Shown here: positions 2,532 to 18,283 of the stretch, in pieces
Layout: every line of letters starts with the position of its first letter
How positions within the stretch are numbered: position 1 is the first letter of the stretch
Origin: Pelagimonas varians
Lineage (GTDB): Bacteria > Pseudomonadota > Alphaproteobacteria > Rhodobacterales > Rhodobacteraceae
Direction of reading: 5' to 3'
NCBI RefSeq assembly: GCF_003208435.1
Contig: NZ_QKMF01000004.1
Coordinates: forward strand, 248,001 to 312,000
DNA length: 64,000 bases
Notes under the pieces: model-generated
What the model saw: only the letters and a program-made list of their open reading frames with translations
Database searches by the model: none
What the model was told of the DNA's origin: nothing
Position numbers and translations under genes: made by a program

Positions 2532-2532
2532 G

Positions 2533-4098
2533 TCAAAGCTCCGCGTTAGATTGTGTTTGATCAAAAGTGGGTGATGGCAGTCCCGCTGCCATTTGCAGCA
2601 GCAAATCGTCCGTTGCGTCTCTGGCTGCTACAGAACCGGATATGCGTCCTTCGTGAATGACGAGAATATTCGTCGCCAGCGAAACAAGTTCGGGGAAATC
2701 CGAAGAGACAACAAGTATCGCCATTCCTGCCGCAGCGCGGCGCATCAATTCGGTGTGAATTTGGAATTTTGCCCCAACATCGACACCCTTGGTCGGCTCT
2801 TCGATTATGAGAAGGTCCGGAGACCGCTCCAGCCATTTGGCCAACATGATTTTTTGCTGATTGCCACCTGATAATGCGCCAATTTTTTCTTCTGGACCGC
2901 GCGTCTTGACGCTAAAACTGGCAATTGCGCTGTCGCTGGCTGCCCTGATCGATTTGGCGTTCAAGAGACCGAAAGACGTGTGTTTCTCCATGCTGGATGA
3001 CACAAGGTTCGCGCTTAACGGATCATCCAGAAACAGGCCTTCGGTTTTGCGTTCCTCGGGAACAAAACCAACCCCGGCGCGCATTGCAGCTCTTAGGGAG
3101 GCGAAGGCAATCTTCTGGCCATTCAACGTGACGCTTCCGGTATCGGACTGCGTCAAACCGGCAATGCAACGCACAATTTCGCTGCGGCGTGATCCCAAAA
3201 GTCCAGCAAGGCCAAGTATTTCGCCCTTTCGAACCTGAAAACTGATATCGGAAAAATGTCCATCCTGCGAAAGGTTGTTCACGGCCAAAACGACATCGCC
3301 CAGCTTGTCGATTGACCGTTCAACGTCACCTGGATGCGCGCTTCCGATCATCTCAGCGACAACCTGTGTTTGACTGGTATCTTGTGTCGCGTTGCAGCTG
3401 ATCATATGACCGTCGCGCAACACAGAAATCCGATCCGCAATTGCAAAGATTTCAGACATATGATGGCTGACATAGACAATTCCGATACCGCGAGCGGTCA
3501 GTTTTCTTAAAACTTTAAAGAGGGCTTCAACCTCGTCCGGAGTGAGTGCCGAGGTTGGCTCGTCAAGAAGCAGAACCTTTGAATCAAGCGACAGCGCTTT
3601 GGCGATTTCAACGATCTGGCGTGTGCTGATCGGCAGACTATCGACCGGTGCTGTCACATCGAGTGCGAGATCGAATTCCGCCAGGAGCGCTTCGGCCCGA
3701 CGCCTCAGCGCCTTCCAGTCGACAACGCCAAACCGTGAAGGAGCGCGCCCGGCAAAAATGTTTTCGGCAATGGAGAGGGAACCGGCGAGGCTGAGTTCTT
3801 GAAAGACACAACTGATCCCGAGGTCTTGGGCATGAGAAGGGCCAAGAATGCGGACGGTTTCTCCGTCTCGTCTAATGTCACCGGAAGAGGGCGTGTGAAG
3901 CCCGTAAAGAAGGCTGAGGCAAGTCGATTTACCAGCGCCATTTTCACCTACAAGTGCATGTATTTCGCCCTGATTGAGAGCGAAGTCGATGTCTTTCAGA
4001 ACAGCGTTGGAGCCGAAGCTCTTTTGAACGCCATGCAGTGAAAGCAGGCTTTTCGAACGCACTGCGTTTGAATCTTTTAATTGTCGTGAATCCACCAA
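2533..4098 (-). CDS. Sugar ABC transporter ATP-binding protein (RbsA-like, duplicated ATPase)
   Basis: The 521-residue protein carries two fused ABC domains, as in RbsA, MglA and XylG. The first has a standard Walker A (GENGAGKST, residues 51-59), an atypical signature (LPISTRQIVEIAKAL) and Walker B KVLLLDEPTSAL. The second has the family's degenerate Walker A (GLLGSRRSE), a perfect signature LSGGNQQKIMLAKWL, and Walker B LLIIEEPTKGVD in which the usual Asp is Glu. The start is TTG 4098, placed six bases after GGGAGG; a GTG follows directly and is an alternative. It is the first gene of the leftward transport unit. A TCTGATATTTCAGA palindrome lies just upstream, so a GntR regulator probably controls it. 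Confidence 0.9.
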   Translation of the reverse strand: MVDSRQLKDSNAVRSKSLLSLHGVQKSFGSNAVLKDIDFALNQGEIHALVGENGAGKSTCLSLLYGLHTPSSGDIRRDGETVRILGPSHAQDLGISCVFQELSLAGSLSIAENIFAGRAPSRFGVVDWKALRRRAEALLAEFDLALDVTAPVDSLPISTRQIVEIAKALSLDSKVLLLDEPTSALTPDEVEALFKVLRKLTARGIGIVYVSHHMSEIFAIADRISVLRDGHMISCNATQDTSQTQVVAEMIGSAHPGDVERSIDKLGDVVLAVNNLSQDGHFSDISFQVRKGEILGLAGLLGSRRSEIVRCIAGLTQSDTGSVTLNGQKIAFASLRAAMRAGVGFVPEERKTEGLFLDDPLSANLVSSSMEKHTSFGLLNAKSIRAASDSAIASFSVKTRGPEEKIGALSGGNQQKIMLAKWLERSPDLLIIEEPTKGVDVGAKFQIHTELMRRAAAGMAILVVSSDFPELVSLATNILVIHEGRISGSVAARDATDDLLLQMAAGLPSPTFDQTQSNAEL

Positions 4099-4125
4099 AA
4101 ATATCCTCCCGCCTTAAGGGTGGCG

Positions 4126-4139
4126 TCTGATATTTCAGA
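4126..4139. promoter_or_regulatory. Putative GntR operator (TCTGA-N4-TCAGA) upstream of the ATPase gene
   Basis: The 14-base element TCTGATATTTCAGA is a palindrome with 5-bp arms and a 4-bp spacer. Read on the minus strand it is identical, base for base, to the element at 19895-19908 in front of the TRAP operon. It lies 27 bases upstream of the ATPase start and between that gene and the GntR gene. It is a strong candidate binding site for one or both FCD-type regulators in the window. Confidence 0.6.
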
Positions 4140-4273
4140 TGTCAACGAAAATTAAATTCAATTAAGACAGCGACATGGCGCGAAGTGATGTGATCAGGAT
4201 CGGTGACACATCGCGATATTGTCCAGTTGTCAGTCGGGTTTTTAAGGCGTGCTCATCCCGTTATGACGTCATT

Positions 4274-4927
4274 TCAGGACTCTTTGATGGACGATGCATA
4301 AGTCTGGCGAGTTCTGTCGATGTGCTCAGAAAGCAAGCGTCGGATTTCTGCCAAATCACTTTTCTGAACCGCTTCTGCGAGACCAATATGTTCTTCGAAA
4401 GACAATTGGGTGTGTTGGGGGAGTGCAGACAAGTGAGTGCGAAGCGCCGCAATTTTTCCAACGTACCGGTCATAGCTGGCAGAAAGATAATCGTTCTCAC
4501 AATTTTTGAAAATGGCTTGGTGAAAGGCCGTGTCGAGTTCAAGGTATTTGGCCTCATCGCCAGATTTTCGTGCCGCACTCATATCTTTGACGATCCGGAT
4601 CATGTCGCTTGAAAGGGCCTTTTGATTGCGCTTGAGTGCCAATTCGAACGCGGCTGTTTCGATGGTTTGACGGAAGTCACAGATCTGGTTCACCTCGTGT
4701 TCCGTCAACGTAAAAACACGTGCGCCTTTTTGGGGCTCAATCGTGACAAGACCTTCGTCTCGTAACTGCGCGAGGGCCTCGCGGACGGGTGATTTGGATA
4801 CCCCGAGTTCATCCGAGATGCCGCGTTCCGAGAGAACTTGGCCCATCTTTAGTTCGCCACCGACGATCCGTCCCCGCAAATGTTCCAGTGCGAGCTCTCT
4901 GAGTGATTTTGGGCGCGTGAGTGTCAT
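4274..4927 (-). CDS. GntR-family (FadR/FCD subfamily) transcriptional regulator
   Basis: This 217-residue regulator has a winged helix-turn-helix at residues about 8-72 (helix with SDELGVSKSPVREALAQL) and an FCD ligand-binding domain from about 80 to 205. The metal-binding set of the FCD family is complete: D132, H136 (DTAFHQAIF), H180 (FEEH) and H202 (LSEHID). Such regulators usually bind a sugar acid or other carboxylate and release DNA. It sits between two divergent transport units and is transcribed away from the lactonase operon, with a pair of palindromes in the shared intergenic region. It aligns without gaps to the second GntR protein (19986-20645), so the two are paralogues. It probably represses both flanking units and itself. 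Confidence 0.88.
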   Translation of the reverse strand: MTLTRPKSLRELALEHLRGRIVGGELKMGQVLSERGISDELGVSKSPVREALAQLRDEGLVTIEPQKGARVFTLTEHEVNQICDFRQTIETAAFELALKRNQKALSSDMIRIVKDMSAARKSGDEAKYLELDTAFHQAIFKNCENDYLSASYDRYVGKIAALRTHLSALPQHTQLSFEEHIGLAEAVQKSDLAEIRRLLSEHIDRTRQTYASSIKES

Positions 4928-4948
4928 GGTCGGTCCATTTTTTTGTTG

Positions 4949-4997
4949 TCAGATTATAATATCTGATATACCAAGTCCCGCAAGCTGGTATATCAGA
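4949..4997. promoter_or_regulatory. Compound operator between the GntR gene and the lactonase operon
   Basis: Two inverted repeats overlap here. TCAGAT-N6-ATCTGA spans 4949-4966, and a perfect 12-bp inverted repeat TCTGATATACCA / TGGTATATCAGA spans 4962-4973 and 4986-4997 with a 12-bp spacer. Each arm of the second repeat also resembles the TGGTATACCA half-palindromes bound by FadR-type GntR proteins. Placement between divergent starts (4927 and 5028) suits a repressor controlling both directions. Confidence 0.65.
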
Positions 4998-5027
4998 CAC
5001 CAGTAGATTCTTACTAGGGAGGGCAAG

Positions 5028-5891
5028 TTGATCAGCGCAAAACTCATACTTGATTGCAAAAACCAGCACGGAGAGGGCATTTTTTGGAATGCCGCGGATG
5101 GCTTGGTTTGGTGGACAGATATCGAAGGGCGCACTGTGTGGTCCTTTGATCCGGCCACATTGCAAGAACATACCTATGAAATGCGGGACCGTGTCTGTTG
5201 TTTCGCCCCGCGCAAGTCAGGTGGTCTGATCGTTGCCTTTGCTGACCGGATTTCCCTGTTCGACTTGGAAACCGGACGCGAAGAGAAAATCTGCGATTTT
5301 GAACCTGACAACCCGGAAACGCGCACAAATGACGGGCGTACCGATCGGTTGGGGCGTTTTGTCGTTGGCGGCATGAACGAAAAGTCCAGGAAGGCGAACT
5401 CATCTGTGATCCGGATCGACGAAAAGCTGAACGTAGAAACGTTGTTAGAGGGCGTGTCTTGCGCCAATTCAACCTGCTTTGGCCCGGATGGTACCACCAT
5501 GTTTTTCGCCGATACACCTGATCGCGAAATTCTCGCCTTCGACTATGGCGCTGAATTGTCAAACCGACGCGTTTTGGCGTCCTTTCTGGATGAACCCGGA
5601 TTGCCGGACGGGTCCTGCGTCGACGCAGAAGGCGGTGTCTGGAATGCGGAATGGGAGGGGAGGCGTGTCGTGCGTATCAACCCCGAAGGGCAGATCGATA
5701 CTGTGATCGACGTGCCTGTCTGGAAACCGACGTGTTGTGCCTTTGGCGGACCAGAACTCGATACTTTGTACATCACCTCGTCGCGATTGATGAGCGACGA
5801 AGTCGCGCTGGCGCGCGAACCACATTCAGGGGGGCTGTTCGCAGTCAAACCCGGCTTCAAAGGGCTTCAGGACAGTCTGTTCTGTGGCTGA
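5028..5891 (+). CDS. SMP-30/gluconolactonase family lactonase
   Basis: The protein is a 287-residue six-bladed beta-propeller of the SMP-30/LRE family. Characteristic pieces are HGEGIFWNAADGLVWWTDIEG at the start, where the Glu is a metal ligand in this family, TNDGRTDRLGRFVVGGM (Asn-Asp metal site), FGPDGTTMFFADT, and LPDGSCVDAEGGVWNAEW carrying the catalytic Asp. These enzymes hydrolyse sugar lactones to aldonic acids in the cytoplasm. The start is TTG 5028, five bases after AGGGAGGG; no ATG fits. It is the first gene of a 13-gene operon ending in DgoK, DgoA and MgsA, so it very likely opens the lactone made by one of the SDR dehydrogenases. Confidence 0.87.
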   Translation: MISAKLILDCKNQHGEGIFWNAADGLVWWTDIEGRTVWSFDPATLQEHTYEMRDRVCCFAPRKSGGLIVAFADRISLFDLETGREEKICDFEPDNPETRTNDGRTDRLGRFVVGGMNEKSRKANSSVIRIDEKLNVETLLEGVSCANSTCFGPDGTTMFFADTPDREILAFDYGAELSNRRVLASFLDEPGLPDGSCVDAEGGVWNAEWEGRRVVRINPEGQIDTVIDVPVWKPTCCAFGGPELDTLYITSSRLMSDEVALAREPHSGGLFAVKPGFKGLQDSLFCG

Positions 5892-5914
5892 AGACGATGA
5901 TCAGGGAGGAATAA

Positions 5915-6949
5915 ATGATCAATTATCTCAAGGCGACAACAATAGCCGTAACGGTTTCACTGTGCGCGAACGCAGCAGCCGCTGAGGACTATCCTGCACC
6001 TGTGCCGATGATGGACGGCGCGCAGGCTGCAATCGATGCGATCACTCCGAAAAACGAGACGTTTCGCATCGCTTACATGCCCCCGGCGACAGAGTTCAAT
6101 TACTATATTGCGGTTGGCGAAGGCATCAAAGCAATCGCGGCAGAGCAAGGGGCCGAGGTCTTTATGCTCGCACCGCAGAGTGGTGCCGACATTAATGGTC
6201 AAATGGGTATGATCCAAGATGTCCTGACACAAGATGTCGACGCCATCATCTTTGGAACGCATGATGAATTTGCGGCAGCGCCGCTGATCAAGAAGGCTGT
6301 TGACCAAGGTATTGCTGTCTTGATGATCAATTCTGACATCCCGAACTTCCCGACACCAATTCACGGCGTTGTCGGATATTCACAACGAAATGGCACACAC
6401 AAGATAGCCGATTGGGCGATCGAGACCTATGGCGGTGAGCCAGTGAAAGTCGGGATCATCGAAGGCCAACCGGGGTATCACTCAACAGAGCGTGTTGGCG
6501 GTTTCTTGGATGGTATCGAGGGCAACGAAGATTTCGAGGTTGTGGTTTCCATCCCCGGTGGCTGGAACGTTGAAGGTGGCAATACCGCTGGTATGGATAT
6601 TCTTCAGTCGCATCCGGATTTGGACGTTATCTTCGCGGCAAACGACTACATGATCATTGGCGCGTCATTCGCGGCCAAAGCGCTGGGTCGCTCTGATATT
6701 GCACTGCTTGGCAATGACGGCGACACCTCTGGTCTGGAAGAAATCGCGGCCGGAAATGTGACGGCAACGGTCAACACGTCACCCTACCTTATGGGGCAGG
6801 CGGCAATGCACGCCACACTGGACGCGCTTGAGGGTACGTATCCCGGTGGTTGGATCGAGACGCCCACGTCTATCGAAGACAAAAACGGTGCGATTGCGGT
6901 GCTTCAAGAGCCTGAAAAGCTCTTCCCGTTGCCATCCAAAGAATACTGA
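5915..6949 (+). CDS. Sugar ABC transporter substrate-binding protein (Peripla_BP_4), second system
   Basis: A 344-residue periplasmic sugar-binding protein begins at ATG 5915 after a strong AGGGAGGA site. A Sec signal peptide covers about the first 23 residues (hydrophobic core then CANAAAAED). The mature part has the type I binding fold: FRIAYMPPATEFNYYIAVGEG, VDAIIFGTHDEFAAAPLI, VKVGIIEGQPGYHSTERVGGF, LDVIFAANDYMIIGA and IALLGNDGDTSG. It is only distantly similar to the binding protein at 488-1486, so the two importers in this block probably recognise different ligands. A stem-loop follows it before the ATPase gene. Confidence 0.88.
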   Translation: MINYLKATTIAVTVSLCANAAAAEDYPAPVPMMDGAQAAIDAITPKNETFRIAYMPPATEFNYYIAVGEGIKAIAAEQGAEVFMLAPQSGADINGQMGMIQDVLTQDVDAIIFGTHDEFAAAPLIKKAVDQGIAVLMINSDIPNFPTPIHGVVGYSQRNGTHKIADWAIETYGGEPVKVGIIEGQPGYHSTERVGGFLDGIEGNEDFEVVVSIPGGWNVEGGNTAGMDILQSHPDLDVIFAANDYMIIGASFAAKALGRSDIALLGNDGDTSGLEEIAAGNVTATVNTSPYLMGQAAMHATLDALEGTYPGGWIETPTSIEDKNGAIAVLQEPEKLFPLPSKEY

Positions 6950-6965
6950 GCCTCCTCCTGTTCCT

Positions 6966-6989
6966 CGGCGGTGCGCAATGGTGCCGCCG
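6966..6989 (+). terminator. Stem-loop between binding protein and ATPase genes
   Basis: CGGCGG (6966-6971) pairs with CCGCCG (6984-6989), and the stem can be extended inward by a C-G pair and two wobble pairs. It occupies the gap between the binding-protein gene and the ATPase gene and lacks a T-run. A role in protecting the upstream message, giving excess binding protein, is more likely than termination. The same arrangement is seen at 456-480. Confidence 0.4.
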
Positions 6990-7030
6990 GGGGGCGCACA
7001 CAGTGTTCCTTTCAATTTTTAACTCGAGAG

Positions 7031-8566
7031 ATGACCATGACGAGCGATACCACTCCTCTTTGGGAATTTGCCGACATAAGCAAGGCATACCCTGGCGTTC
7101 TCGCGAACGACAAAGTTTGTATCAAGCTGATGAAGGGGTCTATCCACGGTCTGTTGGGTGAAAACGGCTGCGGTAAATCAACAATGATCAAGACGCTTTC
7201 AGGTGTTCAGCAACCTGACAGTGGACGCATCCTTTACAATGGAAAAGCGGTGCAAATATCTGATCCGCTTGCCGCGCGAGATCTTGGCATCGCCACAGTA
7301 TTTCAGGAATTTTCCATCGTGCCGACCTTGTCTGTGGGAGAGAACATCTTCCTTGGAAACATGCCGCGTTCGCGACTGGGCGCAATTGATTGGCGCAAAG
7401 TCAATTCAGAGTCTGCACGTGTTCTAAAAGAGATGGACGTCAACATCCATCCCGAAGCAATCACTGGCGATCTGTCTGTTGGAGAGCAACAGCTTGTTGA
7501 GATCGCAAAGGCGGTCGCGATGGACGCCAGCATGATCATTCTGGACGAGCCAACGGCCGCGTTGGGTGAAGAAGAAATCGAACAATTGCACCAGCTTTTG
7601 CGGAATATGCGCCGTCGCGGGACCGCAATCCTTTATGTCTCACACCGCTTGGATGAGGTGGAACGGATTGTGGATGAAGTCACAATTTTGCGGGGGGGCC
7701 GGGTTGTCAGTGCGGCAGGTGAGACCGAAATCAATGTCAGCGAAATCGTAAGTGCGATGGTTGGCGGGGATGTCGGCGAGCATTATCCCAAAGAGAACAA
7801 TGCCACCGACGATGTGGTTCTGCGGGCCTCGGGCTTGAGGACAAAAGCCGGGGTCAGTGACGCGACTTTCGATCTGAGAAAGGGCGAAGTCCTTGGGCTT
7901 GGCGGAGTTCTGGGCAGTGGTCGAACCGAAATTGCACGTGCCTTGTTCGGAGTTGACACATTGACTGAAGGATCGGTGGAGCTGGGTGGCTCACCGGTAA
8001 AATTTCGCAATGAGATGGACGCCATCAAGGCGGGGATGGCTCTGGTTCCGGAGAACCGAAAAACCGACGGGCTATTCTTCAATTTCAGGGCCAGCGGAAA
8101 TATCACGGCGGCATCGCTCGCCGAAATCTCCAAATTGGGCATCCTTGACCTTTTGACAGAAGCAGACGGCACAGAGCGCCTGATTGACGAGCTTGAAATC
8201 TCGGCGCAGGCAGAAGCCAAGACCGTTAACTTTTTATCAGGCGGCAACCAACAAAAAATAGTCATCGCTCGGTGGTTGTTCGCGGACGCGCAGGTTTTGA
8301 TCTTGGATGAACCGACGCAGGGCATCGATATCGGTGCCAAGATCGCGGTCTACAAGTTGATGAACACGCTTACACGCGCGGGCAAGTCAATCATTCTGAT
8401 TAGTTCCGACCACGACGAGTTACTCGCGATGAGCGACCGTGTCGCCGTTGTTCAACATGGAGCCATCAAAAAGATCGTTGCTGCGAAAGAGTTGTCACAT
8501 GACGACCTTGTGCGCGCTTCGGCTGACAACATTGAACACGTATCGAAGGAGCAACTGGCCTCATGA
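7031..8566 (+). CDS. Sugar ABC transporter ATP-binding protein (RbsA-like), second system
   Basis: The 511-residue product has two ABC domains in tandem. Domain one has Walker A GENGCGKST (residues 43-51), signature LSVGEQQLVEIAKAV and Walker B MIILDEPTAAL. Domain two has the usual degenerate P-loop (GVLGSGRTE), signature LSGGNQQKIVIARWL and Walker B LILDEPTQGID. ATG 7031 is preferred over the upstream GTG at 6971, because the extra 20 residues would be encoded by the intergenic stem-loop. Its stop overlaps the permease start by four bases (ATGA), the sign of translational coupling. Confidence 0.9.
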   Translation: MTMTSDTTPLWEFADISKAYPGVLANDKVCIKLMKGSIHGLLGENGCGKSTMIKTLSGVQQPDSGRILYNGKAVQISDPLAARDLGIATVFQEFSIVPTLSVGENIFLGNMPRSRLGAIDWRKVNSESARVLKEMDVNIHPEAITGDLSVGEQQLVEIAKAVAMDASMIILDEPTAALGEEEIEQLHQLLRNMRRRGTAILYVSHRLDEVERIVDEVTILRGGRVVSAAGETEINVSEIVSAMVGGDVGEHYPKENNATDDVVLRASGLRTKAGVSDATFDLRKGEVLGLGGVLGSGRTEIARALFGVDTLTEGSVELGGSPVKFRNEMDAIKAGMALVPENRKTDGLFFNFRASGNITAASLAEISKLGILDLLTEADGTERLIDELEISAQAEAKTVNFLSGGNQQKIVIARWLFADAQVLILDEPTQGIDIGAKIAVYKLMNTLTRAGKSIILISSDHDELLAMSDRVAVVQHGAIKKIVAAKELSHDDLVRASADNIEHVSKEQLAS

Positions 8567-9546
8567 AACGAATTTTTGATGCGCAACTGATCGGCCCGTT
8601 TGCGGCCATGGTCATCGTGACTTTGATCGTTGCTATGACAACTGACAGGTTTTTGAATCCGGGCAACCTATCCAACTTGTTCCTACAGGTGAGCATCGTT
8701 GCACTGATAGCCATTGGGGCGACGGTTGTGATTTTTGCTGCCGGTATTGATCTGAGCTCGGGCTCGATGGTCGCGCTTTTGACTATGATACTGGCTCAGA
8801 TGCTCAAGTTCATGGGACTTCCCTTGATATTCGCTTTGCCACTGATCCTTGTCGTGGGCGCTTTGTTGGGGCTGGGTTTGGGGCTCATTACGGCTTACGG
8901 TCGGATCCCGTCCTTCATCACAACGCTTGCGGCGCTGATCGCGTTTCGCGGCCTTGCGCTGACGTTCAACAACGGCTCTCCGATTTTCTCGTTGGACCCC
9001 GGTCTGGAACCGATCTTTTACGGGAAACTGGCAGGTATCCCTTTGCCGTTCTTCTATCTTCTAACCTTTTATGGCTTGGCCGCGTTCACGATGAATTTCA
9101 CCAAGCTAGGACGCGAGATTTATGCAGTTGGGGGCAATCCCGCCGCCGCGGTTTTGACGGGTATCAACGTACGAAAAGTGCAAGCGATCACCTTTGCCAT
9201 TGCCGGGTTTATGACTGCTGTCGGTGCGGTTTTGATGTCTGCCCGGTTAAATTCCGGGTCTCCAAATTACGGTCAGACTCTTGAGCTGCAAGCCATTGCT
9301 GCGGCGGTTGTAGGGGGCGCCAGCCTTGCAGGCGGTCGGGGTAATATTTTGGCGACGTTCATGGGCGCGATGACAATCGTGATCGTGCAAAACGGACTCA
9401 ATCTAAATGCTGCACCTTCGTCGGTTCAAAACATCGTGCTGGGCCTGATCATTTTGCTGGCTGTCGGGATTGATATGTGGCGGGCCGAACTCTCGAGCCT
9501 CCTGTCTTCTGTTTTCGGAAAATCTGCTTCAGTGAAGGGAGGGTAA
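8563..9546 (+). CDS. Sugar ABC transporter permease (RbsC-like), second system
   Basis: A 327-residue inner-membrane permease of the RbsC family. Seen in order: a hydrophobic N-terminal helix, GATVVIFAAGIDLSSGSMVAL (the conserved LSxGSMVAL motif), YGRIPSFITTLAALIAFRG, and the late block ELQAIAAAVVGGASLAGGRG that contacts the ATPase. It overlaps the ATPase gene by ATGA and is followed two bases later by the SDR gene, so the importer and the catabolic enzymes are on one transcript. Confidence 0.9.
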   Translation: MKRIFDAQLIGPFAAMVIVTLIVAMTTDRFLNPGNLSNLFLQVSIVALIAIGATVVIFAAGIDLSSGSMVALLTMILAQMLKFMGLPLIFALPLILVVGALLGLGLGLITAYGRIPSFITTLAALIAFRGLALTFNNGSPIFSLDPGLEPIFYGKLAGIPLPFFYLLTFYGLAAFTMNFTKLGREIYAVGGNPAAAVLTGINVRKVQAITFAIAGFMTAVGAVLMSARLNSGSPNYGQTLELQAIAAAVVGGASLAGGRGNILATFMGAMTIVIVQNGLNLNAAPSSVQNIVLGLIILLAVGIDMWRAELSSLLSSVFGKSASVKGG

Positions 9547-9547
9547 C

Positions 9548-10336
9548 ATGGATCTCGGTTTGAAGGACAAGCTCGTATTGGTGACTGGCTCTGCGTCTGG
9601 CATCGGTAAGGCAACCGCGAAAATGTTTCTGCAAGAAGGGGCGAAAGTCATCATTCACGGTCTGACCGAGAATGAGGTCGGTTCCTGCATCAAAGACCTT
9701 TCCCCCTTTGGTGACGTCGTGGGCAGGGCGGGTGACCTGACAGATCCCGATCAGGCAATCGATTTGTGCAACTTTGCGCAAAGCCATGGCGACATCGATA
9801 TCTTGGTCAATAATGTCGGTATTTTCTCGGTGAAGGCATTTGAAGATCTGACAGATGCCGACTGGATGCTGTATTTTGACGTCAACGTGTTGAGTGCGGT
9901 GCGCATGTCCCGTGTCATTTTGCCTGCGATGCTCAAACGTGGGAGCGGTTCCATTGTGAACCTTGCCAGCGAGGCGGGCGTAAAACCCCTACCGCAGATG
10001 ATCCATTATTCCGTCACCAAAACCGCGATTTTGGGACTAACCCGTGGCATGGCAGAGTTGACCAAAGGGACCGGGGTTCGTGTCAACTCTGTCCTTCCGG
10101 GGCCGACCTGGACCGAAGGCGTCGAAGCCTATTTTGACGGCCTTGCCGCGCAAAAAGGCGCGCCCTTGGCGGATATAATCGAAAACTATTTCAAGACGGA
10201 CGAGCCGACCTCGTTGATCCAGCGCTTCGTACAAGCGCAGGAGGTCGCTCAAACCATTGTCACCGTTGCAGCCAACAAAGCGATGAACGGCGGTGCACAC
10301 AAAGTCGAAGGCGGCATTGTCCGCAACATACTCTAA
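9548..10336 (+). CDS. SDR-family NAD(P)-dependent oxidoreductase
   Basis: This 262-residue classical short-chain dehydrogenase has the nucleotide-binding motif TGSASGIG (residues 13-20), VNNVG in the core, and the catalytic Ser (NLASEAG) with Tyr-x3-Lys (YSVTK). The C-terminal region, with a long helical insertion before MNGGAHKVEGG, is where substrate specificity lies and is not diagnostic. A GGGAGGG site immediately precedes ATG 9548. In context it is the best candidate for oxidising the imported sugar to the lactone opened by the SMP-30 enzyme, or for reducing a keto intermediate. That role is inferred from position only. Confidence 0.8.
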   Translation: MDLGLKDKLVLVTGSASGIGKATAKMFLQEGAKVIIHGLTENEVGSCIKDLSPFGDVVGRAGDLTDPDQAIDLCNFAQSHGDIDILVNNVGIFSVKAFEDLTDADWMLYFDVNVLSAVRMSRVILPAMLKRGSGSIVNLASEAGVKPLPQMIHYSVTKTAILGLTRGMAELTKGTGVRVNSVLPGPTWTEGVEAYFDGLAAQKGAPLADIIENYFKTDEPTSLIQRFVQAQEVAQTIVTVAANKAMNGGAHKVEGGIVRNIL

Positions 10337-10361
10337 CCCACATCAACAAAGGAGCCTATAG

Positions 10362-10856
10362 ATGGCCGCACTTACTTTTTCTCATATTGGCATCACCGTT
10401 CCGGATTTGGATAAAGCCGTCGAGTTTTATTCAAAGGCATTTGGGCTTTATGTCATCATGGGTGCCACAGAAATCCAACATGATGAAAGCGCCATCGGTC
10501 AGATGTGCGACGATGTTTTCGGCGAAGGTTGGGGATCGTTTCGTATCGCACACTTGTCGCTAGGCGACGGGACCGGAATCGAACTGTTCGAATTTCCAAA
10601 CACTGTCGAAGAAGAGCGTCCCTTCGAATACTGGCGCCGCGGATTGTTTCATTTCTGCGTGCAGGACGAAGACGTCGAGGCGCGTATCAAGCTCATCGAG
10701 AGCCTTGGTGGCAAGCAACGCATGCAACAAGTCCGCAAATACTACCCGGACGAAAAACCCTACCGCATGGTCTATATGGAAGACCCATTCGGCAACATCT
10801 TCGAACTTTACAGTCATTCTTACGAATTGACTTATTCTGCAGGTGCTTATGTCTAA
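10362..10856 (+). CDS. VOC-superfamily (glyoxalase/bleomycin-resistance fold) protein
   Basis: A 164-residue protein with the paired beta-alpha-beta-beta-beta modules of the vicinal-oxygen-chelate fold. It starts SHIGITVPDLDKAVEFYSKAFG, has H-x-S-L-x(5)-IELFEF in the first module, LFHFCVQDEDVEARIKLIESLGG opening the second, and MVYMEDPFGNIFELYSH, whose Glu is a typical metal ligand. The ribosome site AAGGAG is good. It might act on methylglyoxal hemithioacetal, since a methylglyoxal synthase is encoded by the same operon, or be an isomerase/epimerase of a pathway intermediate. The family is too broad to decide. Confidence 0.75.
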   Translation: MAALTFSHIGITVPDLDKAVEFYSKAFGLYVIMGATEIQHDESAIGQMCDDVFGEGWGSFRIAHLSLGDGTGIELFEFPNTVEEERPFEYWRRGLFHFCVQDEDVEARIKLIESLGGKQRMQQVRKYYPDEKPYRMVYMEDPFGNIFELYSHSYELTYSAGAYV

Positions 10857-11880
10857 TCGGAAACTCGGCCCGCGAAGGGCAGACCGGCCCAAGGTCGTGA
10901 TAACGGACTACGATTTTGGTGATTTGGATGTGGAGCGCGCCATTCTTGAAGCGGCCGGCGCAGAGGTGATCGCATTACAAAGCAAGGGCGAAGAGGATTT
11001 GCTAGAAGTCGCGACTGATTGCGCAGCGATGATCAATCAGTATGCCCGTATCGGTGCCAAGACGATCGGTGCGATGACGAAATGTGAGGTGATCGCCCGG
11101 TACGGTGTGGGCGTTGACATTGTTGATGTGGATACCGCAACCCAAAAGGGTATCCTAGTCACCAACGTTTTGGATTACTGCACCGAAGAAGTTGCAGACC
11201 ACGCGATTGCACTGTGGATGACATTGGCGCGCAAGCTGCCTGACTACGACCGGGCCACGCACAAAGGCATCTGGAAATGGCAAAGTGGTCAGCCGATCAA
11301 CCGGCTGCGCGGCCGCACGATGGGTGTTGTGTCATTTGGAAAGATCGGACAAGCGATTGCGACGCGTGCGCAGGCGTTTGGCGTCAAGGTCATTGCCTTT
11401 GATCCGTTTGTGCCCGCCGAGGTCGCAGCCAACTTGGATACGGAGCTTGTTTCCAAAGCCGATCTTTTGGCCCGCTCGGATTACATCTTGATGCAAGCGC
11501 CGATGACGCCTGAAACCCGTCACTTTCTTTCGGATGCAGAATTCGCAGCGATGAAACCGGGAGCGATCTTGGTCAACACCGGGCGTGGTCCGACGGTCGA
11601 TAACAAAGCGCTATATCGGGCTTTGACCGATGGACATCTGGCGTCAGCAGGCTTGGATGATCCTGAAGAAGAACCGGCAAAGCGTGCCAAGTGGTCGCCC
11701 GATGACAACCCGATCTTTACATTGCCGAACGTCATCGTGACCCCGCATGCCGCCTACTACTCTGAGGAGTCGATACGTGCTGCCCGGGTAACGGCGGCAA
11801 CACAGGTTGCGCTCGTCCTGACAGGGCAGGCACCAGACTATCCCGTCAATGCAAATGCATTGACCGAAGCAACACAATAA
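10843..11880 (+). CDS. D-isomer-specific 2-hydroxyacid dehydrogenase (CtBP/PGDH-like)
   Basis: The 345-residue protein belongs to the NAD-dependent D-2-hydroxyacid dehydrogenases. The NAD-binding domain has GVVSFGKIGQAIATRAQAFG followed by an acidic end of strand two (FDPF). The catalytic Arg is in NTGRGPTVD, the Glu in LDDPEEEP and the His in VTPHAAYYSEES. It overlaps the VOC gene by 14 bases; ATG 10849 is an equally possible start. It could interconvert a 2-keto acid and a D-2-hydroxy acid in the pathway, such as glyoxylate, hydroxypyruvate or a product of the RraA-like enzyme. The exact substrate cannot be read from sequence. Confidence 0.85.
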   Translation: MLMSNRKLGPRRADRPKVVITDYDFGDLDVERAILEAAGAEVIALQSKGEEDLLEVATDCAAMINQYARIGAKTIGAMTKCEVIARYGVGVDIVDVDTATQKGILVTNVLDYCTEEVADHAIALWMTLARKLPDYDRATHKGIWKWQSGQPINRLRGRTMGVVSFGKIGQAIATRAQAFGVKVIAFDPFVPAEVAANLDTELVSKADLLARSDYILMQAPMTPETRHFLSDAEFAAMKPGAILVNTGRGPTVDNKALYRALTDGHLASAGLDDPEEEPAKRAKWSPDDNPIFTLPNVIVTPHAAYYSEESIRAARVTAATQVALVLTGQAPDYPVNANALTEATQ

Positions 11881-11892
11881 TTGGAGGCAAAA

Positions 11893-12582
11893 ATGCCAGA
11901 AGTTTCCGCCGATCTCCGAGTCTTCAACGACTTTGAGCGCAACCCGGACCTGCTCAAGAAATTCGACAAAGTGCTTGGCGCTTATTCAGCCGCAGCGATT
12001 TTTGCTGATGTGCAATATCGCACGGGCGTAATGGATAGCGGAATAAAGCCTGCTTTCCGGTCCAAAGTCACCGGACAAGCAGTCACGGTTCAATTGTCCA
12101 AAGGCGATCTGGTCGATCCGCTCAAAGCGCTTGAAATGGGCCAAGCGGGTGATGTGATTGTTGTGGATGCCGGAGGCGATCTCAACACATCCGTGTGCGG
12201 CGGCTTGATGGGTGGTTTGGCTCAAAATCGCGGCATTCGTGGCATGATCGTCGACGGGTCCGGGCGCGACACCGACGAGCTTCAAGACATCAACTGGCCG
12301 ATCTGGACACGTGCCATCACTCCGCGTGGGACGCACACAATGTTCTCAGGACGCAAGGAAGAGCTTTCGATCAACGTGCCAATCGCTTGCGGAGGCGTGG
12401 TGGTGAACCCCGGTGATTTTATCGTCGCCGACTTGATGGGTGTAGTCGTTGTGCCTTTGGAAACTGCGAAAGAGGTCGTGAGACTCGCGCAAGAACAGGC
12501 CGACCGCGAAGAAGAAACACGCAAATGGGTCGCTAAGGGCAAAACAGTCGAGGATCTGTTGAATGAATTCGGTCGCATCTGA
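11893..12582 (+). CDS. RraA-family protein (4-hydroxy-4-methyl-2-oxoglutarate aldolase/decarboxylase-like)
   Basis: This 229-residue protein has the RraA fold signature: GDVIVVDAGGDLNTSVCGGLMG in the middle and GIRGMIVDGSGRDTDEL, where the Arg-Asp pair is the catalytic/metal site of class II HMG aldolases and oxaloacetate decarboxylases. WTRAITPRGTH completes the active-site rim. ATG 11893 is chosen for its TTGGAGG site. Retention of the GxxxRD core favours an enzyme over an RNase E inhibitor. It lies between the hydroxyacid dehydrogenase and DgoK; a lyase step on a keto-acid intermediate is plausible but unproven. Confidence 0.82.
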   Translation: MPEVSADLRVFNDFERNPDLLKKFDKVLGAYSAAAIFADVQYRTGVMDSGIKPAFRSKVTGQAVTVQLSKGDLVDPLKALEMGQAGDVIVVDAGGDLNTSVCGGLMGGLAQNRGIRGMIVDGSGRDTDELQDINWPIWTRAITPRGTHTMFSGRKEELSINVPIACGGVVVNPGDFIVADLMGVVVVPLETAKEVVRLAQEQADREEETRKWVAKGKTVEDLLNEFGRI

Positions 12583-13480
12583 ACCGGCATTGATCGGTAT
12601 CGACTGGGGCACATCTTCGCTCCGCGCTTTTTTGATTGGCGCGGGCGGGGAGGTCTTGGATCAAGTTTCAAAACCGGAAGGTATCATGCACGTCAAAGAT
12701 GGCGATTTCGAAGGATCATTTAGGGATCTGATTGGGCCTTGGGGGAACGCTGCCGGCTTGCCGGTCATCGCATCCGGCATGATCACCAGCCGCAACGGCT
12801 GGGTTGAAACCCCTTATGTTTCTGTGCCTTCGGGTGTGAACGAACTTGCCGGGGCGCTGGTGCCGCACAAGACCTCTGACGGGGTGACTGTGACCTTTGT
12901 TACGGGGATGACGACTGATCATGACGGCGCGCCTGATGTTATGAGAGGCGAAGAAACCCAGATTATCGGCGCATCTGCGCTTGGAATGTCTGACGGCACA
13001 TTCGTCATGCCGGGCACACACAGCAAATGGATCACAGTGCGCAGCAACCTCATTGATGACTATGCGACCTTCATGACAGGCGAAGTGTTTGCGGCAATGC
13101 GCCAGCACTCCATTCTTGGAACCCTCATGGAAGAGGGGCCATTTCAAGAGGGCGCATTTCGCAAAGGCTGCGCTGCAGGTTTGGCCGAGGGGAGCAAACT
13201 GCTGCACGATCTCTTCGGGGTCCGCACTTTGCCGCTTTTCGGCAAGATTGCAGGGAACATGGTAGAAGACTATCTTTCCGGGCTTTTGATCGGTGCGGAA
13301 ATCAAAGGGGCGGACGTTGCATCGATTGATGGGCCGGTGATGATTGTGGGGCGTGACGATCTTTCCGATCGTTACGAAATTGGCTTGGAGCTGGCTGGTC
13401 TGACTTCCAAACGCGCACCTGATGATATTGTCGCCAGGGGTCATTTTATGATTGCTCAGGCTGCGGGGCTCGTCTCATGA
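12563..13480 (+). CDS. dgoK: 2-dehydro-3-deoxygalactonokinase
   Basis: The 305-residue product matches the DgoK family: IGIDWGTSSLRAFL is the N-terminal phosphate-1 motif of the ASKHA fold, SGMITSRNGWVETPYV and VMRGEETQIIGA are family-specific, and MPGTHSKWI is the conserved THSKW block. It phosphorylates 2-keto-3-deoxy-D-galactonate at C6 with ATP. It overlaps the RraA-like gene by 20 bases and the aldolase gene by four (ATGA), with GAGGA before ATG 12563. With the next gene it defines the pathway's lower half. Confidence 0.9.
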   Translation: MNSVASEPALIGIDWGTSSLRAFLIGAGGEVLDQVSKPEGIMHVKDGDFEGSFRDLIGPWGNAAGLPVIASGMITSRNGWVETPYVSVPSGVNELAGALVPHKTSDGVTVTFVTGMTTDHDGAPDVMRGEETQIIGASALGMSDGTFVMPGTHSKWITVRSNLIDDYATFMTGEVFAAMRQHSILGTLMEEGPFQEGAFRKGCAAGLAEGSKLLHDLFGVRTLPLFGKIAGNMVEDYLSGLLIGAEIKGADVASIDGPVMIVGRDDLSDRYEIGLELAGLTSKRAPDDIVARGHFMIAQAAGLVS

Positions 13481-14109
13481 AGGACTTTGATACGGCACTG
13501 GCGGAAAACCCGTTGATTGCAATTTTGCGGGGGCTGGAACCAGCCTGCGCGCTGGATGTTGCAGGCGTTTTGGCAGATGCGGGCTTTCGCATCATCGAAG
13601 TGCCAATGAACTCGCCCGATCCACTTGTCTCAATCGAACGGATTGCTCACAAGTTTGGCGATGACATTGTCGTCGGCGCGGGCACGGTGCTGACCTCAGA
13701 CACTGTCACCGATGTTTGCAATGCGGGCGGGCAAATTATCGTCGCCCCCAATATGAACCCAAAGGTAGGTGCCCGGGCGGTTGAGCTGAACGCAAAGTGG
13801 TGTCCGGGCGTTCTGACACCAACAGAGGCTTTCGCAGCTTTGGAGCTGGGGGCTTCTGTCCTTAAGGTGTTTCCGGCCGAATTGGCACCACCAAAAGCAA
13901 TTTCTGCAATGCGGGCAGTTCTTCCGAAGGATGCGATTGTCGCCGTGGTTGGGGGGATTACGCCTGAAACAATGGGCGACTACCGAATGGCTGGGGCAAA
14001 TAGTTTTGGCTTGGGGTCCGCTCTTTTCAAACCATCGTATGACTTGTCAAACTTGCAGGTTCGAGCGCAGGCTTTTGTTACGGCATTCGCGAAAGGACAT
14101 AGCACATGA
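13477..14109 (+). CDS. dgoA: 2-dehydro-3-deoxy-6-phosphogalactonate aldolase
   Basis: A 210-residue class I aldolase of the KDPG/KDPGal family (TIM barrel). Motifs are NPLIAILRGLEP at the start, FRIIEVPMNSPDPL with the catalytic Glu, VVGAGTVLT, NMNPKVGARAVELN, CPGVLTPTEAF, and the Schiff-base Lys in ASVLKVFPAEL. VPMNSP in place of the VTLRTP of KDPG aldolases supports the galacto type. It splits the 6-phosphate to pyruvate and D-glyceraldehyde-3-phosphate. It overlaps both neighbours by ATGA. Confidence 0.9.
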   Translation: MKDFDTALAENPLIAILRGLEPACALDVAGVLADAGFRIIEVPMNSPDPLVSIERIAHKFGDDIVVGAGTVLTSDTVTDVCNAGGQIIVAPNMNPKVGARAVELNAKWCPGVLTPTEAFAALELGASVLKVFPAELAPPKAISAMRAVLPKDAIVAVVGGITPETMGDYRMAGANSFGLGSALFKPSYDLSNLQVRAQAFVTAFAKGHST

Positions 14110-14810
14110 AGAAAACCGTCATTGTCACCGGAGGCACAAGCGGAATTGGGGCAGGGGTCGCAGAGGTTCTGAATGAAGCCGGCTATCATGTCATTGCCGC
14201 GACTGTCTCGCAGGACGAAATTGATCGCTTTTCCGGCGCACCCGAGATTGAGACCTGTCTGATGGACGTCACGAATGGTGCGTCAGTTGATGCTCTGTTC
14301 GGCCGTCTTGAATGCCTTGCGGGTATGGTGAATTGCGCCGGTATTCTGGTGCGGGGACGCGAGTACGACATCGACGTGTTTCAAAAGGTTCTCGACGTGA
14401 ACCTGACGGGCACGATGCGGTGTTGCCTTGCGGCTCAGCCACTGTTGGCCAAATCTGGCGGTGCGATTGTAAACACCGCGTCGATGCTCAGCACATTTGG
14501 GGGGCCGATGGTACCAGCCTATTCCGCGTCCAAAGGTGGGGTGGCCCAGCTGACCAAAGCCTTGGCGGGCAAGTGGGCGGTGGATGGCATCCGCGTCAAT
14601 GCAATCGCGCCTGGTTGGATCGAGACCGAAATGACCCAAGGTCTGCGCGATGCGCCCGAGCGAGAAGCTGGTATTTTGGGCCGGACGCCAATGAATCGTT
14701 GGGGCAAAACCAGCGAAGTCGGTGCGTTGGTCAAATGGCTGCTATCTGATGAAGCAAGTTTTGTAACTGGAGCCGTCTATCCCGTGGATGGCGGTTATCT
14801 GGCAATGTAG
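14106..14810 (+). CDS. SDR-family NAD(P)-dependent oxidoreductase, second
   Basis: A compact 234-residue short-chain dehydrogenase with TGGTSGIG at residues 8-15, MVNCAG in the core, catalytic Ser in NTASMLS and Tyr-Lys in YSASK, and a standard VTGAVYPVDGGY C-terminus. It overlaps dgoA by ATGA. It is clearly different from the SDR at 9548-10336. One of the two may be the sugar 1-dehydrogenase and the other may act on an epimeric or side-chain hydroxyl. Confidence 0.82.
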   Translation: MKKTVIVTGGTSGIGAGVAEVLNEAGYHVIAATVSQDEIDRFSGAPEIETCLMDVTNGASVDALFGRLECLAGMVNCAGILVRGREYDIDVFQKVLDVNLTGTMRCCLAAQPLLAKSGGAIVNTASMLSTFGGPMVPAYSASKGGVAQLTKALAGKWAVDGIRVNAIAPGWIETEMTQGLRDAPEREAGILGRTPMNRWGKTSEVGALVKWLLSDEASFVTGAVYPVDGGYLAM

Positions 14811-14821
14811 GGAGACCCGAG

Positions 14822-15346
14822 ATGGTCGATAAAACAAATTACGACGAACGCACACCTTATCAATTGCCGTTCCCAAAAGAGGCACAGCAAGAGATCGTTA
14901 TCCCGGACGCCATTCCTGATGACGAACGCCTCTGGGTGCCGCAAGCCGAAAACGTTTGGTTTCGCCCGCTGTGTCTAAATCGGTCACAAGGCTATTGGAT
15001 GAACATTTTGCGGGTACGCAAATCAGGTGTTCTGTCTCGGCACCGCCACCCACAACCGGTGCACGGGTTCGTCTTGAAGGGCCGTTGGCACTATCTTGAG
15101 CACGACTGGACGGCAGAGGAGGGGGGATATGTATATGAGCCGCCCGGTGAGACCCACACGTTGGTGGTGCCAGAGGGCGTCGAAGAAATGATGACCTATT
15201 TTCAGGTCAATGGCGTGATGTGTTATGTCGACCCTTGGGGTGAGGTGCTCGGATATGAGGACGTCTTCACCAAAATTGACCTATGCAAAAAGCACTTTGA
15301 AGAGGTGGGTTTGGGAGCCGATTTTGTCGACCAGTTCATCCGCTAA
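14822..15346 (+). CDS. Cupin-domain protein, 2,4'-dihydroxyacetophenone-dioxygenase-like
   Basis: This 174-residue protein has one cupin barrel. The first cupin motif is [19 protein letters not shown], with two His and a later Glu-bearing region (YLEHDW), and the second is [14 protein letters not shown]. These residues are complete enough to bind a metal. The overall layout resembles proteins named after 2,4'-dihydroxyacetophenone dioxygenase, but that name is a similarity label and aromatic cleavage makes no sense here. A sugar or keto-acid isomerase, or an oxygenase on a pathway intermediate, is equally possible. GGGAGA precedes ATG 14822. Confidence 0.7.
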
Positions 15347-15728
15347 AACTTATCATGTGGCCCTTGTGGCCCACGATGCTTGCAAGTCGGCTTTGGTCGA
15401 CTGGGTAGAGGCGCATGTCGATACATTTCGACATGCTGCCATCTTTTCAACAGGGACCACAGGCAGTCGTCTTTCAAAGGCGATGCCAGATCTTAGCATT
15501 GTTGCGTTGAAAAGCGGCCCGTTGGGCGGAGATCAACAGATCGGTGCGATGATCTGTGAAGAGGCACTGGATGCGCTGATCTTTTTTGTCGACCCCTTGT
15601 CGCCCATGCCGCATGACGTGGATGTCAAAGCCCTGACAAGGCTGGCCACAGTGTACGACCTTCCAATGGCTTGCAGCGTCGCGACGGCCAATCTTATTGC
15701 TGATGCGATGAGAAACCAGCGGTTTTAG
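15324..15728 (+). CDS. mgsA: Methylglyoxal synthase
   Basis: The 134-residue product has the methylglyoxal synthase core: [17 protein letters not shown] (His and Lys of the phosphate-binding region), [10 protein letters not shown] (phosphate loop), [15 protein letters not shown] containing the catalytic Asp, and [15 protein letters not shown] with the second acidic residue. The enzyme converts dihydroxyacetone phosphate to methylglyoxal and phosphate. TTG 15324, six bases after GGGAG, is the likely start; it overlaps the end of the cupin gene. Being the last gene of a sugar-acid operon, it is unlike the stand-alone mgsA of enterobacteria. Confidence 0.85.
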
Positions 15729-15796: not shown

Positions 15797-16942
15797 TCAG
15801 TCTTTCACCAAAAGATAGTTGGAAAGTTGATCGATCTTTTCGGCTCCAAGCTGGCTCATGTTGGCCTCGATGTCGGTTTTTAAAATATGCACAAGGTGGT
15901 CAATACCCCGCGCGCCAAAGGCCGCGACAGCGTATTGAAACGCACGCCCAATCATAACGAAATCCGCGCCTTTGGCCAAAGCGCGCATGATATCGAGCCC
16001 CCAAGCCACGCCGGAATCGTAGATAAGCGGAACATCTGGCCCGACGGCCTCCCGGATTTTCGGCAATTGATCTATGACGGCCGGTCCGGCTTCGAATTGA
16101 CGTCCCGAATGGTTCGAAACCCAGATGCAATCCACCCCCTCAGCAACCATTCTTTTGGCATCATCCGGCCGCAGAACGCCTTTGACGACCAGATGGCCAT
16201 CCCATTCCTGGCGCAGTTCCCGCAGATATTGCCAATCCGGGATTCCACGGATCAATGCGCCGGCATGGGTAAAACTTTCCCGACCACGTTGGGGGACGTA
16301 GTCATCGAAGAACCGCATCCTTGGGACAATGCCCTCGCGCATATGCGCGAGACACCACGAGGGGCACCGGGCCATCTCTGTGATTGTCCTCAGGTCAGCC
16401 TTTGGAGGCACGGTCAGGTTGGCGCGCCTTTGACGTTCGCGCCGACTTTCCTCGGGGACATCAACGGTGATGACAAGCGTGTGAAACCCGGCGGCCTTGA
16501 TCCGCGGCAGCATCTTTTGCCGCAACTCTGCGGAATTCACGGGATAGTGCTGAAACCACCCGTTGTTGCCGATGTGGGGCGCGACATCCTCCGGCGACGC
16601 GACCGCCACGCTGGACAGCGAAAAAGGTATGTTGTGCGCAACCGATGCCTGCGCCAGCATGCGCTCTGCACCGGCCCACATCAGTCCGGACATGCCAACG
16701 GGCGCAATGCCGAACGGCAGGTCATATGTCTGCCCAAGCAGTGTTTGCTTCAGGTCGGCCTTGGTACGGCCACATAAAACGCTGGGCATGAACCCAATGG
16801 CGTCCAATGCTTCCCGGTTCGTTTTCAAGCCCAGTTCGCGGCCTGTTGCACTATCAAGGTACTCGAAAGCAAATTTCGGAATCCTTTTGCGCGCGGCTGT
16901 TCGCAGGTCGGCTATCGACGGGTGTGACAGGTCGAGATCCAT
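15797..16942 (-). CDS. FMN-dependent alpha-hydroxyacid oxidase/L-lactate dehydrogenase
   Basis: The 381-residue protein is an FMN-dependent (S)-2-hydroxyacid oxidizing enzyme of the LldD/glycolate oxidase family. It has DLPFGIAPVGMSGLMW, FQHYPVN with the active-site Tyr, VITVDVP with Asp, VVKGVL with the flavin-contacting Lys, WVSNHSGRQ with the catalytic His and Arg, and IGRAFQYAVAAFG. The His loop reads NHSGRQ where most relatives have NHGGRQ. ATG 16942 has an AGAGGAA site and is preferred over the upstream 16996 start, which would overlap dctM. It is the last gene of the TRAP operon, so the transporter may bring in its 2-hydroxyacid substrate, or it may oxidise lactate made from methylglyoxal. 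Confidence 0.87.
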   Translation of the reverse strand: MDLDLSHPSIADLRTAARKRIPKFAFEYLDSATGRELGLKTNREALDAIGFMPSVLCGRTKADLKQTLLGQTYDLPFGIAPVGMSGLMWAGAERMLAQASVAHNIPFSLSSVAVASPEDVAPHIGNNGWFQHYPVNSAELRQKMLPRIKAAGFHTLVITVDVPEESRRERQRRANLTVPPKADLRTITEMARCPSWCLAHMREGIVPRMRFFDDYVPQRGRESFTHAGALIRGIPDWQYLRELRQEWDGHLVVKGVLRPDDAKRMVAEGVDCIWVSNHSGRQFEAGPAVIDQLPKIREAVGPDVPLIYDSGVAWGLDIMRALAKGADFVMIGRAFQYAVAAFGARGIDHLVHILKTDIEANMSQLGAEKIDQLSNYLLVKD

Positions 16943-16989
16943 ACGGTTCCTCTTGTTTCTGTTGTTATACAAAAGCGGTTTCGAGGCGA

Positions 16990-18273: not shown

Positions 18274-18283
18274 CGGGGAGCCC

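Follow-up and report, generated by a model that had tools for sequence, protein, structure and literature searches.

The thirteen-gene operon at positions 5028–15728 (+ strand) of the Pelagimonas varians DNA analysed here (the window, 64 kb in all) belongs to a conserved catabolic unit. Those of its genes for which an earlier, sequence-only reading had found no place in the textbook De Ley-Doudoroff galactonate route are its most conserved part, not bystanders. They include an NAD-type D-2-hydroxyacid dehydrogenase of CtBP/PGDH-like sequence (DHA) and an RraA-family lyase (RRA), which stand directly before a kinase (DgoK) and an aldolase (DgoA) of De Ley-Doudoroff type. The DHA–RRA pair, the missing dehydratase, a TRAP module that probably handles C2 epimers and a pair formed by a short-chain dehydrogenase/reductase (SDR2) and a cupin are all outside the De Ley-Doudoroff scheme. 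We regard the operon as a variant of the De Ley-Doudoroff type and not as a new kind of pathway, and as worth bench work.

Our tentative proposal is a single regulon for the use of a sugar and of its acid. An Rbs-type ABC importer would bring in an aldose, SDR1 would oxidise it at C1 to the lactone, and an SMP-30/gluconolactonase (SGL) would open the lactone to the acid, which the TRAP transporter could also import ready-made. DHA would oxidise one C2 epimer of the acid to a 2-keto acid, the other epimer entering through an FMN-dependent dehydrogenase or, in relatives, through a LarA-type racemase plus DHA. RRA would act on this 2-keto acid to give 2-keto-3-deoxyhexonate, which DgoK would phosphorylate and DgoA would split into pyruvate and glyceraldehyde 3-phosphate, with DHA and RRA occupying the slot of the De Ley-Doudoroff dehydratase. 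A VOC metalloenzyme would act upstream of the acid, and SDR2 and the cupin would form an accessory entry. To our knowledge, RraA-like proteins are widespread and mostly without known function, and one RraA subfamily is now placed at a definite step of a pathway, among several partners that can be tested. The loci also give genomic context for LarA group 22 and for a curated marine glyoxalase family (TIGR03645) that lacks an assigned role. If the proposal is true, functions would follow for this RraA subfamily, for the LarA group-22 branch found here, for TIGR03645 and for the SDR–cupin pair, and the gene set may mark an overlooked marine carbon source.

Conservation of the operon in related loci

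A scan of species-level genomes with RRA gathered 80 loci, in which the other genes were called by fixed identity thresholds. The counts of all other genes are conditional on RRA because the loci were chosen by it, and absences may be cut-offs since many contigs end inside the locus. DHA is present in 73 loci (70 when three remnants, in L012, L015 and L021, are excluded), DgoK in 67, a GntR-type regulator at 36% identity or more in 65, DgoA in 62, VOC in 55, the sugar-binding protein (SBP) of the ABC importer in 51 and SGL in 50. These are followed by SDR1 (48), SDR2 and cupin (43 each, in the identical loci), TRAP DctM (41), FMN dehydrogenase (35), methylglyoxal synthase (MGS, 27) and LarA (9). 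DHA, DgoK and DgoA occur together in 58 loci, among them L015 and L021 with their DHA remnant, and all 55 loci with VOC have DHA. Identity ranges from 75 to 94% for both RRA and VOC and from 32 to 78% for DgoK.

Ruegeria, Shimia, Roseibium and further marine genera carry the gene set too, and the recurrence of the gene order in many genera shows an arrangement beyond chance. The comparison of gene order across relatives, which the sequence-only reading had proposed, supports a conserved catabolic unit. That reading would have dismissed RraA, VOC and cupin as bystanders had they been absent from orthologous clusters and not induced together with dgoKA; they and DHA all recur there, the SDR2–cupin pair is found again in a sister DHA–RraA operon, and no putative operator (see below) precedes the internal genes tested. 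VOC and the SDR2–cupin pair are nevertheless accessory modules and not universal members.

The order was sampled evenly with 292 genomes, which were searched with cut-offs of E 1e-80 for RRA and 1e-60 for VOC and cupin. RRA was found in 10 genomes, VOC in 53 (including 8 of the 10 with RRA), cupin in 25 (including all 10) and DgoK in 273. The distribution of RRA in the order is therefore patchy. Every one of the ten RRA genomes holds at least two DgoK genes, one being that of the operon, as against 49 (counted by eye) of the 282 others. The genome of P. varians itself has a single RRA and two remote relatives of it.

All thirteen genes lie where the sequence-only reading had placed them, with the families and near-contiguous junctions that it gave, as judged from open reading frames (ORFs), Pfam and NCBIfam. 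Neighbouring genes overlap by at most 20 bases or are separated by at most 25, except between cupin and MGS (15225–15728, NF003559 over cut-off), where the listed overlap of 122 bases is an artefact of the longest-ORF start of MGS, because its homology begins at residue 41–43. The listed start of the ABC ATPase (6971, GTG) is probably also too early. The limits of the unit had been drawn too narrowly: a GntR gene, divergently oriented and accompanied by a further Rbs-type importer (488–4927), and a TRAP/FMN-dehydrogenase operon (15797–19958) share the same putative operator. The sugar-entry genes are SGL (5028–5891; PF08450, 9e-77, with E16, N147 and D194 conserved), SBP (5915–6949, PF13407), ATPase (6971–8566, PF00005), permease (8563–9546, PF02653) and SDR1 (9548–10336), likely a sugar C1 dehydrogenase. 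All PDB relatives of this SBP are remote (best E 3e-20), and a search of plasmids with the DNA of the whole operon gave two partial matches only.

Some loci show other neighbours. In L012, L015 and L021 a TctA gene precedes an intact RRA (together with TctC in L021, where both were scanned). RRA is paired with an MFS transporter, DgoK and DgoA in the sphingomonad/caulobacter loci L071, L074 and L075; a PQQ-type dehydrogenase is present in L071 (scanned) and L075, and a TonB receptor in L071.

The DHA–RRA pair and the kinase slot

The best solved relative of RRA (11881–12582), from the same fold family, is the HMG/CHA aldolase 3noj (E 8.4e-29). The alignment holds 45 sequences, and with L083–L085 left out of the count G108, R129, D130 and E133 are invariant in all 42; they match the motif of an RraA-type class II pyruvate aldolase, in the spacing G-X20-R-D-X2-E. 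RraA aldolases share the motif G-X20-R-D-X2-E/D, in which Arg-123 and Asp-124 of 3noj are the metal/enolate residues. RRA differs from 3noj in belonging to a sugar operon and not to aromatic degradation, and in a longer invariant stretch around HTMFSGRKEELS. Arg-123 of 3noj is described in passages of one report as essential and as stabilising the pyruvate enolate (PMC5065237). We infer that RRA is a metal-dependent lyase of RraA type whose reaction passes through a pyruvate-like enolate. Another RraA-family enzyme is the KDGR dehydratase/decarboxylase FlDet, whose product is reportedly alpha-ketoglutarate semialdehyde, made in a route without a kinase. In the passages that describe it, FlDet can remove both water and CO2 from a 2-keto sugar acid (PMC8563752); it comes from an alginate route and is likened to RRA by that description, not by sequence.

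In DHA (10843–11880), R248, E277, H302 and D187 are each conserved in at least 97% of 67 sequences. D-2-hydroxyacid dehydrogenases use Arg, Glu and His as catalytic residues and carry Asp in the NAD type; the roles of most conserved catalytic residues named here are likewise those of their families. A function of DHA in glycerate or hydroxypyruvate metabolism was rejected, as it leaves DgoK unexplained.

The kinase and 6-phosphate aldolase of the De Ley-Doudoroff pathway for D-galactose and D-galactonate are both represented, by a DgoK-family 2-keto-3-deoxygalactonate kinase (12563–13480; PF05035, 1.6e-88, and trees) and a DgoA-family 2-keto-3-deoxy-6-phosphogalactonate aldolase (13477–14109; NF006600 over cut-off, K130 conserved). 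The operon shares with that pathway also the lactonase, a sugar SDR and GntR-family control, but adds DHA, RRA, VOC, SDR2, cupin, MGS, TRAP and FMN dehydrogenase or LarA, and neither DgoD nor any other sugar-acid dehydratase was found among its thirteen genes with Pfam and NCBIfam. The upper and lower parts, called standard in the sequence-only reading, are thus not wholly so: this dehydratase is missing, and a second DgoK/DgoA pair lies elsewhere in the genome. The suggestion of an unreported pathway holds in so far as no description of the gene set was found in the open full-text literature, subscription journals and supplements being outside that scope; it does not hold for the lower and part of the upper route, which are De Ley-Doudoroff.

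It is possible, if rather unlikely, that the operon is an ordinary galactose/galactonate operon, in which galactonate is the product of SDR1 and SGL, a dehydratase from elsewhere in the genome converts it to 2-keto-3-deoxygalactonate (KDGal), and DgoK and DgoA finish the route. DHA, with FMN dehydrogenase or LarA, would then convert epimers or 2-ketoaldonates to galactonate, while RRA, VOC and cupin would handle side products. DgoK and DgoA are indeed genuine family members, the PDB relatives of DHA include a 2-ketogluconate reductase, and dehydratase candidates exist both in the genome and in a Pantoea operon. However, the galactonate dehydratase model NF010624 is over cut-off in none of the ten RRA genomes (best per genome 231–248 bits against 311), RRA and VOC are better conserved than DgoK and DgoA, and in related loci RRA stays in place when DHA, the kinase or the importer changes. 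Moreover, the second DgoK–DgoA pair lies in L099 (G000:C9:159000-173000) with importer-like and two large hydrolase-like genes, a locus that, read from ORF lengths and starts, already looks like an ordinary GH36/GH42-type galactoside operon.

Returning to our proposal, the kinase slot is informative. RRA-linked DgoK genes are not one clade: their tree, used without a duplicate gene (L150 = L060), has four label changes, at least three of them forced by supported branches, and several long branches, and these changes cannot separate gain from loss. DgoK of other lineages is carried by the Pantoea/Entomohabitans and the sphingomonad/caulobacter loci. Of the 15 genomes that carry the cupin but not RRA, eight were inspected; the cupin has an SDR2 relative as its neighbour in seven, and three (L170, L172 and L174) contain a sister operon of the order GntR, TRAP, DHA (34–36%), RraA (30–34%), kinase, SDR2 and cupin. 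The kinases of L172 and L174 are of the ribokinase type, with 2-keto-3-deoxygluconate (KDG)/KDGal kinase as best models, at 181 and 190 bits against a cut-off of 400, and that of L170 belongs to the same protein cluster. RraA and kinase are adjoining in L172 and separated by a stretch of about 1.2–1.3 kb without an assigned gene in L170 and L174. That kinases of two unrelated types follow DHA and RraA at the same position suggests that 2-keto-3-deoxyhexonate arises there, and this swap is our best evidence for it. That DHA and an RraA-type lyase form an oxidative branch which replaces the dehydratase and feeds either DgoK or a ribokinase-type kinase, with LarA or FMN dehydrogenase supplying the other epimer, is a possibility that we hold with some doubt.

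The TRAP module and its probable regulon

The FMN-dependent 2-hydroxyacid dehydrogenase (15797–16996, − strand, PF01070) and the TRAP genes DctM/DctQ/DctP (16990–19958, − strand; the listed DctP start is probably too early) follow the operon on the opposite strand. A LarA-type gene, with no FMN dehydrogenase seen, is present in 9 of the 80 loci and on a Marinovum plasmid; in all of these it adjoins TRAP or GntR–DHA–RRA. The two genes never occur together among the 80 loci; the 41 TRAP loci hold FMN dehydrogenase in 32 cases, LarA in 6 and neither in 3 (hypergeometric 1.9e-5, uncorrected for kinship and contig ends). The FMN dehydrogenase belongs to a family whose members are usually L-specific, and the DHA family is D-specific. 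The exchange with LarA suggests that TRAP probably carries a 2-hydroxy acid in both C2-epimeric forms, the two leading to one 2-keto acid. A role of FMN dehydrogenase and LarA in lactate or peptidoglycan metabolism was rejected, as the context of TRAP, DHA and kinase favours a sugar acid.

LarA of L046, the one tested, scores 529.7 bits against NCBIfam group 22 (NF052515, NPN_iso_grp_22; cut-off 400), while the window itself carries FMN dehydrogenase in its place. LarA gave no PDB match by sequence at E 0.001. In L031, genes for the NPN cofactor lie near LarA, namely LarC (PF01969), an AIRC-domain (LarB-type) protein and LarE (TIGR00268); such neighbours were not seen in every LarA locus. According to passages of two reports, the inversion catalysed by LarA enzymes takes place at C2 of 2-hydroxy acids, gluconate/mannonate among them, and those passages give no substrate for group 22 (PMC7583248, PMC11770544). 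The ten group-22 genes of the 292-genome sample are a remoter branch (38–43% identity to L046), and five of their ten 20-kb stretches, four of them from one genus, hold RraA-like and D-2-hydroxyacid dehydrogenase genes at 26–31%. In L137 (4941–11782) a remote group-22 LarA adjoins IlvD/EDD dehydratase, DHDPS-type lyase, RraA-like and GntR genes, a neighbourhood that also points to sugar acids; we read it as a different sugar-acid pathway with a likely C2 epimerase. The TRAP binding protein has 7bbr as its fourth-best PDB match (E 7.6e-53), a KDG-binding protein in the relevant passage of PMC11668362. Reading its ligand from fold matches was dropped, as the model was too poor (mean pLDDT 39.4).

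The probable regulator of the unit is a GntR/FCD-family protein (4274–4927, − strand; PF07729, PF00392). Behind it, the second Rbs-type importer (488–4098, − strand) points away from the operon; its permease (1539–2564) and ATPase (2533–4098) were assigned by Pfam/NCBIfam and its SBP (488–1486) by ORF and position only. Two putative operators lie between GntR and the lactonase, TATCTGATA (4960–4968, matching on both strands) and TATCAGACA (4991–4999), and a third, TATCAGATA (19902–19910), lies in the TRAP promoter region, inside the over-long start of the DctP ORF. Exact TATCWGAYA sites occur at these three places only in the window, giving 5 strand matches against 0.54 expected, and none of 100 shuffles scored as high. 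Among related loci, 38 of 51 have a putative site no more than 300 bases upstream of SGL; for TRAP DctP (counted from the homology start) the figure is 12 of 42, for LarA 1 of 10, and for DHA, where VOC is absent, 11 of 20. No site lies that close upstream of VOC, RRA, DgoK, SDR2, cupin, FMN dehydrogenase or DctM. These per-locus counts are descriptive because the palindrome was first noticed in the same promoter sets, and the window count against shuffles is the cleaner, near-independent test. The shared palindrome at both promoters suggests that the sugar operon, the divergent GntR/ABC genes and the TRAP/FMN genes probably form one GntR regulon. A second GntR-family regulator beside TRAP (19932–20645, + strand) belongs to the same protein cluster as the first, and either may bind the palindrome. 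The TATCTGATA-type site is absent from the three sister operons. Their promoters show, by eye, repeated CTGGCATAC/GTATGCCAG stretches in L172 (about 15050–15180) and L174 (about 1210–1280), perhaps an operator of their own.

Carbon balance and the accessory genes

Several observations weigh against the route that we propose. Oxidation followed by one lyase step misses KDGal, because a C2-oxidised hexonate (C6H12O7) is C6H10O7 and KDGal is C6H10O6. In L012, L015 and L021 all that is left of DHA is 65 residues (19% of its length, 83–89% identical), and the sphingomonad/caulobacter loci have no DHA. DgoK is missing from 13 of the 80 loci. In a DgoK search (10 of 12 records positive), seven of eight genomes without DgoK at the locus have it elsewhere, which says little because the gene is so common, and in one metagenome-assembled genome (MAG), G005, none was found. 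The P. varians genome has no galactonate dehydratase over cut-off but encodes other sugar-acid dehydratase candidates outside the operon, and in Pantoea/Entomohabitans an enolase-superfamily dehydratase-like gene beside DHA–RRA–DgoK–DgoA could make KDGal without DHA and RRA. Three PDB matches of the TRAP binding protein rank above 7bbr; partly from a published passage, we take them to be an open form or binders of pantoate/erythronate. LarA group 22 and RRA, each in 10 of the 292 genomes, share none.

The simplest ways to close the balance are an acid that is 3-deoxy from the start and the removal of a carbon group by RRA; dehydration plus further reduction would also close it. If the acid is 3-deoxy, DHA would make a 2-keto-3-deoxy acid, which RRA would cleave or epimerise at C4. 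Two other routes were rejected: the isomerisation of 3,6-anhydrogalactonate to KDGal requires no oxidation, and for a uronate or aldarate route the kinase requires a C6 hydroxyl.

The VOC protein (10362–10856) bears on the first of these cases. It scores 265.7 bits against TIGR03645 (glyox_marine; curated cut-off 262.05), H8, E74, H97 and E148 are invariant in 25 sequences and are probably metal ligands as in the superfamily, and the closest structures to its model (mean pLDDT 78.7) come from the glyoxalase family, with Z 13.0 for 1ss4 and about 12 for GloA/GloA2. VOC is present in all 50 SGL loci, the five VOC loci without SGL are cut by a contig end, and the nine TRAP loci without VOC are also without SGL and the importer's SBP. 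Because VOC travels with the lactonase, it should act before the acid. The acid might be a 3-deoxyhexonate of the metasaccharinate type, a natural pair of C2 epimers, made by VOC as a glyoxalase from a 3-deoxyosone; DHA, FMN dehydrogenase or LarA would turn it into 2-keto-3-deoxyhexonate, and RRA, as a pyruvate aldolase, would cleave this or equilibrate its C4 epimers for the kinase present. We think this unlikely. It balances with DHA as sole oxidation and fits the aldolase motif of RRA, the glyoxalase-like fold of VOC and the varying kinase type, but SGL and SDR1 would need a 3-deoxy aldose, and our literature search, whose matches concerned mainly glycation and glyoxalase, gave no source of such acids for a marine importer. 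Furthermore, relatives of VOC are not tied to DHA and RRA in other genomes: 12 stretches outside the operon (57–85% identity, two of them second copies in RRA genomes) have neither gene nearby, and in five of these a gene of one protein cluster, LysR-type in L163, divergently adjoins VOC.

SDR2 (14106–14810) and the cupin (14822–15346, PF12973, ChrR-type) bear on the case of further reduction. The cupin is close to 2,4'-dihydroxyacetophenone dioxygenase (DAD; 4p9g, phmmer 2.4e-44), and its H74, H76, E93 and H112, conserved at 97% or more in 43 sequences, match the iron site, formed by three His and one Glu, of DAD-type dioxygenases, a class that cleaves alpha-hydroxyketones. SDR2 is below the KduD cut-off (TIGR01832, 168.8 against 338.85 bits). 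By the logic of KduI and KduD, DHA might oxidise a hexonate, RRA dehydrate the resulting 2-keto acid, the cupin isomerise the product and SDR2 reduce it to KDGal with no net redox change, a detour that we judge very improbable. It balances for a plain hexonate, one RraA dehydratase/decarboxylase, FlDet, has been described, and SDR2 and cupin share their 43 loci and recur beside a KDG-type kinase; in the sister operons cupin, SDR and ribokinase-type kinase adjoin much as in the KduI–KduD–KdgK uronate route. Yet the cupin resembles a dioxygenase, and elimination from a 2-ketoaldonate should remove the C4 hydroxyl and so give a 4-deoxy, not a 3-deoxy, product. The detour lost further ground because, of the 27 genomes searched among the 37 with a cupin-less locus, 17 (some of them incomplete MAGs) have no cupin relative at E 1e-30, while 10 have one elsewhere.

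Two kinds of more distant cluster were also seen. L152 (about 1203–4379) and L154 (about 3605–6781), in neither of which DgoA was matched, hold other DgoK-family genes with a remote RraA-like gene (26%), SDR and GntR, and L154 adds a 6-phosphogluconate dehydrogenase. On a Caballeronia plasmid (L085, 20796–24576), a cluster of sugar kinase, RraA and a royal-jelly-type gene lies near a cluster of DHA, RraA and mandelate racemase, according to the annotation of the record.

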